A stretch of 64,000 bases of DNA from Desulfosporosinus sp. Sb-LF (GTDB lineage Bacteria > Bacillota > Desulfitobacteriia > Desulfitobacteriales > Desulfitobacteriaceae), in contig NZ_SPQR01000002.1 in the NCBI RefSeq assembly GCF_004766055.1, positions 310,001 to 374,000 of the forward strand, read 5' to 3'. Positions 20,946 through 22,479 of the stretch are shown piece by piece (positions within the stretch are counted from its first letter, which is position 1; each line of letters begins with the position of its first letter). A program made the position numbers and the translations under genes. The notes beneath the pieces were generated by a model that was given only the letters and a program-made list of their open reading frames with translations, was not told the DNA's origin and did not search any database.

Positions 20946-21036
20946 GGAGGAGTATCGAAGTGGTCATAACGAGAGCGACTCGAAATCGTTTGACGGTGTA
21001 AACCGTCCGTGGGTTCGAATCCCACCTCCTCCGCCA
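20946..21036 (+). tRNA. tRNA-Ser(CGA)
   Basis: This 91-base gene includes CCA. The acceptor GGAGGAG pairs with CTCCTCC, the anticodon loop is CTCGAAA giving CGA for UCG codons, and the long variable arm (GACGGTGTAAACCGTC) marks a serine tRNA. Confidence 0.95.
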
Positions 21037-21049
21037 CTACATAAGAATC

Positions 21050-21090
21050 AAGGGTCTTCGCACACATAAAGCGAAGCCCTTTTATTTTTT
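21050..21090 (+). terminator. intrinsic terminator after tRNA-Ser(CGA)
   Basis: AAGGGT-CTTCGC and GCGAAG-CCCTT form an 11-bp stem with one bulge, followed by TTATTTTTT. Confidence 0.8.
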
Positions 21091-21189
21091 AGGTATAGAG
21101 AATGGTAATGACCAAAAATCATAGGTCATCAGTTACTTTATTTGAAGAAAAATCTATTGGAGGGTATTTCGATGTAAAAGGAAAAAATA

Positions 21190-21519
21190 TTGTCTTATAT
21201 CTTAGATTCATACCCCTATCCAGTGGTATTTGTTGATTGTGATCATATTATCCGACACATGAATAAAAAGGCTAATTACCATTATTACCAGGAACGTAGA
21301 TACCGTGATCTGATTGGTAAATCGGTGTTTACTTGTCATCAAAATGTGGAGTCAGTTGAAATGATAAAAGCAGCAGTTGAAAAACTTAAAAATCACGCAA
21401 GTGAAGTTTTTTTACATGTTAATGTTAGGAATGAAAGAGTATATATAGTTCCTGTAAGAGATGAGAGTGGTAGATTATTGGGATATTTCGAGAGATTCGA
21501 AATGAATTTACAGAAGTAG
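21190..21519 (+). CDS. small PAS-like sensor protein, abnormal start
   Basis: The 109 residues look like a single PAS domain (YPYPVVFVDCDHIIRHMNKKA, then DLIGKSVF and RVYIVPVRDESGRLLGYFE). No output domain is present, so it may be a small ligand- or redox-binding protein; ligand and function are unknown. The start is problematic. A strong GGAGGG precedes an ATG at 21172 in the same frame, but the next codon is TAA. Translation may instead begin at TTG 21190, with AAGGA seven bases upstream. A single base change from CAA to TAA would explain the layout, so this could be a fresh pseudogene, a start-stop element, or a sequencing error. Confidence 0.6.
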   Translation: MSYILDSYPYPVVFVDCDHIIRHMNKKANYHYYQERRYRDLIGKSVFTCHQNVESVEMIKAAVEKLKNHASEVFLHVNVRNERVYIVPVRDESGRLLGYFERFEMNLQK

Positions 21520-21675
21520 TCATAAAAATTAAACACTAACGGGGAATAAAAATTTTTAATCTCCTTAAGAGAACAAATGGGGTTTCGCAAGCATTGCGAG
21601 GCCTCTTCTATTTCTACCCAGAAGAAAAGCTCGTAAGTTAAACCTTTTCTACTTTGCTTAAACCTTCACAATCTT

Positions 21676-21722
21676 GGACATACTGTTATTAGTTAAGAGA
21701 TGTAACAGATAACAGTATGTCC
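21676..21722. repeat. 14-bp inverted repeat upstream of spoIIR
   Basis: GGACATACTGTTAT (21676-21689) and its exact reverse complement (21709-21722) are separated by 19 bases. The right arm ends 5 bases before the GAGGGGG ribosome site of spoIIR. There is no T run, so it does not look like a terminator. It could be an operator or an RNA hairpin in the spoIIR leader. Confidence 0.7.
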
Positions 21723-21744
21723 ATATGAGGGGGTTTGATTTTTA

Positions 21745-22479
21745 ATGAAAGCAGTAAATACTATTATTATAAGTTTGATTGCATTTATGCTAATTGGAGC
21801 TTTTTGGGGACCAATTCGTGGGGGAAATGCGACTGAAAGTAATAAAGTTGCTGCCTCTTCATCTTCTAATGAAAAGGCGTTAGCTTCAACACCAGATCAA
21901 TTGATTCGCTTTCATGTTCTCGCAAATTCGGACAACGAACAGGACCAAGCGCTCAAGCGAGCCGTTCGTGATGCCATTCTCAAAGAAGTTTCTCCCCGGT
22001 TAGCTGTTTCTCGGTCCTTAAGTGAATCTCGGCAACTGCTTAAACAAGTTCGTCCGGATATGGAGGATATTGGTCGGTCAGTAGTAAAGGCTTGGGGTAA
22101 GGATTATTCGGTACATACAGAGTATGGACATTTCTCATTTCCCACAAAATCTTATGGCACATTGGTTCTGCCAGCTGGTGACTATGAGGCATTACGTGTG
22201 GTGATCGGAGAGGGCCAAGGTTCAAATTGGTGGTGTGTACTTTTTCCACCACTTTGCTTTGTCGATATTGATCATTCCACTGCAGTTCAAGTTGATGGAA
22301 AGCCAGGGATACCACTTAAAAACGAGCTAAGAGGTGGTGTTTCAGGCGGAGTTAATAGAGGGGTTAAAAACGAAGCCTTGGCTTTACCAATCAATCAAAC
22401 ATATAAAACTACGAAAAGCTCGCCTAAGATACGATTTTTCTTTTGGGAAATGGTTAATCGTCTTACTACTGCCGTGTAA
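21745..22479 (+). CDS. spoIIR: stage II sporulation protein R
   Basis: SpoIIR is the secreted forespore signal that triggers SpoIIGA processing of pro-sigma-E in the mother cell. The 244-residue protein has an N-terminal membrane or signal segment (about 5-25) and the family core LIRFHVLANSDNEQDQALKRAVRDAIL, and it contains WWCVLFPPLCFVD and ends near KIRFFFWEMVN. The ATG follows GAGGGGG. In Bacillus it is a sigma-F gene; I could not identify a clear sigma-F promoter here. Confidence 0.93.
   Translation: MKAVNTIIISLIAFMLIGAFWGPIRGGNATESNKVAASSSSNEKALASTPDQLIRFHVLANSDNEQDQALKRAVRDAILKEVSPRLAVSRSLSESRQLLKQVRPDMEDIGRSVVKAWGKDYSVHTEYGHFSFPTKSYGTLVLPAGDYEALRVVIGEGQGSNWWCVLFPPLCFVDIDHSTAVQVDGKPGIPLKNELRGGVSGGVNRGVKNEALALPINQTYKTTKSSPKIRFFFWEMVNRLTTAV

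Follow-up and report, generated by a model that had tools for sequence, protein, structure and literature searches.

In Escherichia coli lacI, early nonsense mutations place a stop soon after the start codon and translation can restart at a nearby codon. The gene described here displays a similar layout, with a possible restart. Start-stop sites, where a stop comes directly or nearly directly after an initiation codon, have been detected by bacterial ribosome profiling in E. coli and Campylobacter jejuni (PMC11955535), and an ATG-TAA pair of like arrangement is present in the window, the 64,000-nucleotide stretch of Desulfosporosinus sp. Sb-LF DNA analysed here (contig NZ_SPQR01000002.1, positions 310,001 to 374,000). 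In contrast, the 18 C. jejuni sites are given in that report as internal and out of frame, whereas the window pair is found in a single genome, in frame and at the ancestral start of the gene. In E. coli, termination close to an initiation site is described as being followed by restart, with an efficiency that drops with distance (PMC9841429), and a review presents start-stop upstream open reading frames (uORFs) as occurring in eukaryotes and reinitiation as frequent in prokaryotes (PMC5972666). In eukaryotic start-stop uORFs, such as the AUGUAA of Arabidopsis NIP5;1, the AUG UAA lies 5′ of the main frame, as in the window. However, these sources describe leader elements that are separate from the main start, whereas the window element would be the destroyed start of the gene itself (PMC5972666, PMC11915504). 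The start-stop and reinitiation cases, as these sources describe them, make a weak restart at window position 21190 plausible (PMC11955535, PMC9841429, PMC5972666).

The start region of the gene is summarized in Table 1. An earlier note, made from the letters alone, had described a GGAGGG ribosome site, an ATG at 21172, an immediate TAA and a TTG at 21190 preceded by AAGGA, all in one frame, and every base of this description is exact in the window sequence. The TAA is followed by AAG GAA AAA ATA and then by the TTG (21190–21192), in the same frame as the ATG; the AAGGA motif occupies 21178–21182, seven bases 5′ of the TTG, and the frame stays open up to a TAG at 21517–21519. Sigma-70-like sites near the gene occur at chance level only. 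The downstream neighbour is presumably spoIIR.

Table 1. Coordinates of the PAS gene start region and of its flanking features in the window.
Feature	Position	Strand	Basis
tRNA-Ser(CGA), upstream edge of the gap with the PAS gene	20946..21036	+	tRNA call
Ribosome-binding site GGAGGG of the ancestral start	21159..21164	+	Sequence; 16S-tail duplex energy −9.8 kcal/mol (15 comparators: −9.1 to −12.9)
ATG, ancestral start codon	21172..21174	+	Aligns with the ATG/GTG/TTG starts of 13 intact genus orthologues
TAA, codon 2	21175..21177	+	GAA, GAT or GAC there in intact genus copies
Codons 3–6 (K-E-K-I), AAGGA inside; still like the R/K-E-K-M of relatives	21178..21189	+	Alignment, codon-drift test
Open frame that remains, 109 codons from TTG; PAS protein of one domain	21190..21519	+	ORF list, Pfam, alignment
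Terminator-like hairpin 3′ of the PAS gene (weak)	21579..21605	+	1 found; shuffles 0.4, sd 0.8
spoIIR-like gene, downstream edge of the gap with the PAS gene	21745..22479	+	ORF; name presumed

The window gene is a small sensor-type gene with a lone PAS domain. Translated from TTG 21190, the frame matches Pfam PAS_10 over nearly the full profile (E 1.4e-08, protein residues 1–102 on profile positions 1–101 of 106, 35.8 bits against a cut-off of 22.1), contains no further stop and matches no NCBIfam family above cut-off. The nearest solved structures, by both sequence and structure, are the PAS domains of SMU_1151c (2qkp) and PF0695 (3cax), which belong to larger proteins, whereas the window family consists of a lone domain of ~115 residues. 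An AlphaFold2 model (mean pLDDT 87) of L032, an intact orthologue, places the N-terminal helix at residues 3–12 and the first strand at residues 19–22. Judged from this model, a start at codon 7 would remove the first six residues, including the first four of the N-terminal helix, and leave the PAS core in place.

The window genome (G000) was compared with 28 other genomes of the genus and the start regions of the homologues were aligned. An intact copy is present in 13 of the 28, and the window frame displays 76–82% protein identity to these copies over 109 residues. In all 13, a strong ribosome site precedes a start codon (ATG, GTG or TTG) that aligns with ATG 21172. These murD-linked orthologues share with the window gene its length, its strong ribosome site and the start position but lack a stop at codon 2, where the window gene has TAA. 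Codon 2 of the 15 other genus copies that hold this stretch (the 13 intact ones and the broken copies of G004 and G017) is GAA in five, GAT in eight, GAC in one and AAT in one, the AAT belonging to a broken copy and the three other codons accounting for the remaining 14. A stop at this codon is thus found in 0/15 genus copies, and at the matching codon in 0/11 clostridial copies of greater distance, whose start in some cases lies at a different codon. From the ATG counterpart onward the genus copies conserve E/D-R/K-E-K-M with few exceptions. Codon 7, the counterpart of TTG 21190, specifies Leu in each of the 15 comparators (the 15 genus copies minus G043, together with G030 from outside the genus), through TTG in six and through other Leu codons in nine. 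Because the 13 intact orthologues start at its counterpart and codon 7 is a plain Leu, ATG 21172 is, on the alignment, the ancestral start, broken in this genome by a stop within a frame that is intact in the orthologues. The earlier interpretation of GGAGGG and ATG 21172 as an ordinary start interrupted at codon 2 is therefore upheld, and the pattern named beforehand as contrary to it is absent, as none of the 13 intact copies starts at the counterpart of 21190 or carries the TAA. In contrast, the CAA-to-TAA change that the note had proposed as the cause finds no counterpart among the relatives: CAA is absent from codon 2 in all 15 genus copies and was rejected as the likely lost codon, which on this comparison most likely coded for an acidic residue.

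The remaining genus genomes point to a gene that has been lost repeatedly. It is frameshifted in G004 and both frameshifted and shortened by a deletion in G017, frameshifts that could themselves be draft-genome errors, while G041 retains a C-terminal remnant and G009 a doubtful one. In 11 of the 28 genomes, three of them less than 90% complete, the gene was not found, the search giving either no match at all or distant PAS domains that belong to longer frames. With 15 of the 28 genomes holding a broken or reduced copy, or none that was found, the PAS gene is, on this distribution, dispensable and accessory. Beyond the genus it is present at E 1e-25 or better in one of 53 further genomes (G030), where codon 2 is GAA. 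A clostridial metagenome-assembled genome carries the gene twice in tandem (L048, 2625–2942 and 3001–3315).

The location of the window copy also differs from that of its orthologues. The intact copies lie just upstream of murD in 13/13 cases, with mraY before the PAS gene on the same fetched stretch in nine of the 13 loci, both gene names being our assignments by likeness. By its distribution, the lone PAS protein is an accessory, and not a core, neighbour of the cell-wall cluster. In G000, no PAS match lies in the gap between mraY and murD, whose matched ends are ~584 bases apart, and the only copy found lies between tRNA-Ser(CGA) and spoIIR, a setting seen in one of the 28 spoIIR loci fetched, that of the window itself, although some of these loci are short. 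On the murD-spoIIR tree, the genomes closest to G000 are G005 and G020 (grouping support 0.82), both without the gene, so that either transfer or retention by relocation is possible, the window gene being a homologue at another site that one of these routes may have brought there. When 25 placements on the tree were tried, the branch to G030 was the best, by only 2.5 lnL over the species-tree position, a margin too small to decide for or against a horizontal origin. In G030 itself the PAS gene occupies a third setting (L133, 1498–1845), between frames that by eye we take to be acetyltransferase-like and methyltransferase-like. The mraY-murD gap (L030–L038 and L080–L100), which has the PAS gene in 13 of the 28 genomes, holds repeat-like GC-rich filler in several others, and in G021 (L091) a frame there looks by eye like what we presume to be an acetyltransferase. 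The gap 5′ of spoIIR (window 21037–21744; L050–L053, L058) looks like a place of repeated insertion, holding the PAS gene in the window and, at the five other loci, a frame that we assume from its appearance to be DinB-like.

Selection on the gene was assessed with a purpose-written codon-model fit of 15 sequences, 14 of the genus and G030. Omega (dN/dS) is 0.042 overall and 0.034 on the window branch, where the profile stays within 1.92 lnL of the best value for about 0.01–0.09 and omega = 1 is worse by 14 lnL units; neutrality is thus rejected and no relaxed constraint is seen elsewhere in the frame. For four further end branches omega was 0.032 (G003), 0.269 (G014), 0.073 (G012) and 0.072 (G016), values that scatter in so short a gene, the separate omega of G014 being about 3 lnL better than a single one. 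The window branch is long and its synonymous sites are nearly saturated, with fourfold-site agreement of 3/19 to 12/25 to the genus copies and G030, so that its exact omega is rough. The window gene is not spotless: five of its residues differ at columns that are invariant in the rest of the 14 genus copies, the most of any copy (the next has three), which goes with the long branch and has not raised omega. One of the five changes (ERGY to ERRY) affects a column otherwise invariant in all 26 copies; changes of this kind number one to three in three distant copies and one in several others. Codons 3–5 still specify the family residues (K/R, E, K/E/T), an outcome whose probability is 0.003 if drift lasted throughout the branch, 0.05 if it lasted for 30% of the branch and 0.30 if it lasted for 10%, as calculated from the fitted model with assumed ancestral codons. 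Long neutral drift is excluded, and old decay was rejected, since neutrality fails on the window branch and codons 3–5 are kept. The low omega and the kept codons together suggest a stop that arose recently, is not genuine or is tolerated through restart. Among the options that the note had offered, a recent loss-type mutation is favoured, whereas long-standing decay is contradicted by the omega of 0.034.

The second ribosome site and the start-stop pattern were examined in turn. The predicted duplex with the 16S tail has an energy of −6.2 kcal/mol at the site of TTG 21190, compared with −9.8 kcal/mol at that of ATG 21172. Among the 15 comparators, which have a normal start, five (G003, G004, G013, G014 and G030) form a duplex at the second position that is at least as strong. 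On account of these five, AAGGA is best seen as a by-product of the conserved R/K-E-K codons; a dedicated second site and start is not apparent, the TTG being a Leu codon by descent. A count over the 4.27 Mb genome finds the string GGAGG-N4-10-ATGTAA 13 times and its reversed pattern 11 times, so that by itself the string is unremarkable and at chance level, and a class of start-stop genes in this genome was rejected on the same counts. The special point, as the alignment presents it, is not the string but the correspondence of ATG 21172 to the start codon of all 13 intact genus orthologues. An in-frame run of more than 100 open codons follows only two of the 13 matches. One is the window gene, and the sole other lies around position 1501 of L118.

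Taken with a probability of roughly 0.72, the preferred reading is that a normal PAS-domain gene of accessory character has recently acquired a nonsense codon at position 2 in this lineage, with a possible weak restart at the TTG. Ribosomes would load at GGAGGG and, as the sequences of the relatives imply, initiate at ATG 21172; UAA would be met in the A site at once and, by standard termination, cause release. At most a minority would be expected to restart 12 bases downstream at UUG 21190 from the weak AAGGA site, yielding a PAS protein without its first six residues. Against a recent stop, omega is not raised in the rest of the gene, just as a wrong base or a product that is still made would predict. 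The first of these possibilities, that one base of codon 2 is a sequencing or assembly error and the gene is really intact, is the main rival, a less likely account that deserves some weight: the rest of the gene looks functional, with no other stop and an omega of 0.034, and the strong ribosome site is kept. However, the genome has a completeness rating of 99.99% in 30 contigs, the neighbouring genes, judged by eye, are long uninterrupted frames, and a real loss would be unsurprising for a gene of which 15 of 28 relatives gave a broken copy or none.

The second possibility, that a product is still made by design, requires the AUG-UAA to be kept by selection, capturing ribosomes and letting a small tuned fraction restart at UUG 21190 so that the PAS level is low. 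A strong site, a start-stop, a weak site and an open frame do follow each other in a workable order, the PAS model is nearly whole from TTG 21190 and purifying selection is intact on the window branch. Start-stop sites are reported in bacteria (PMC11955535), and the AUGUAA of a plant leader is described as stalling ribosomes (PMC11915504). Nevertheless the element is common to no orthologue examined, the site before the TTG is matched or surpassed in a third of the comparators, which have a normal start, the genome holds no excess of such sites, and starting at 21190 would, on the model, cost part of the N-terminal helix. The coding-like state of codons 3–5 also argues against a long-established start at 21190, although selection on AAGGA could keep the same codons. 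Selection for the element is thus improbable, and the deliberate reinitiation that had been offered as an explanation is unsupported, the stop being unconserved, the second ribosome site no stronger than in relatives and the genome-wide count without excess. There is an equally slender chance that the stop became fixed for lowering, and not abolishing, PAS synthesis, AUG-UAA with a UUG restart acting as a fixed attenuator of a copy outside the cell-wall cluster; if so, a broken-looking gene would still be under purifying selection. Most improbable of all is that TTG 21190 is the normal start and the upstream ATG-TAA a chance pair. TTG is a permissible start with AAGGA at seven bases, but the genus copies conserve the codons from the ATG counterpart onward and place the strong ribosome site before it. 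As an ancestral start, TTG 21190 is contradicted by the orthologue starts and by the Leu at codon 7, and the presence of Leu there in 15/15 comparators, with TTG in only six, argues that it is not a start by descent. Compared with these alternatives, the nonsense codon in a dispensable gene looks like ordinary biology, a recent single mutation (or a reading error) without sign of a deliberate regulatory device. Automatic start calling likely selects the TTG and hides the broken ancestral start, a point for correction of the annotation; the program-made list of open reading frames indeed places the start of the PAS gene at the TTG.
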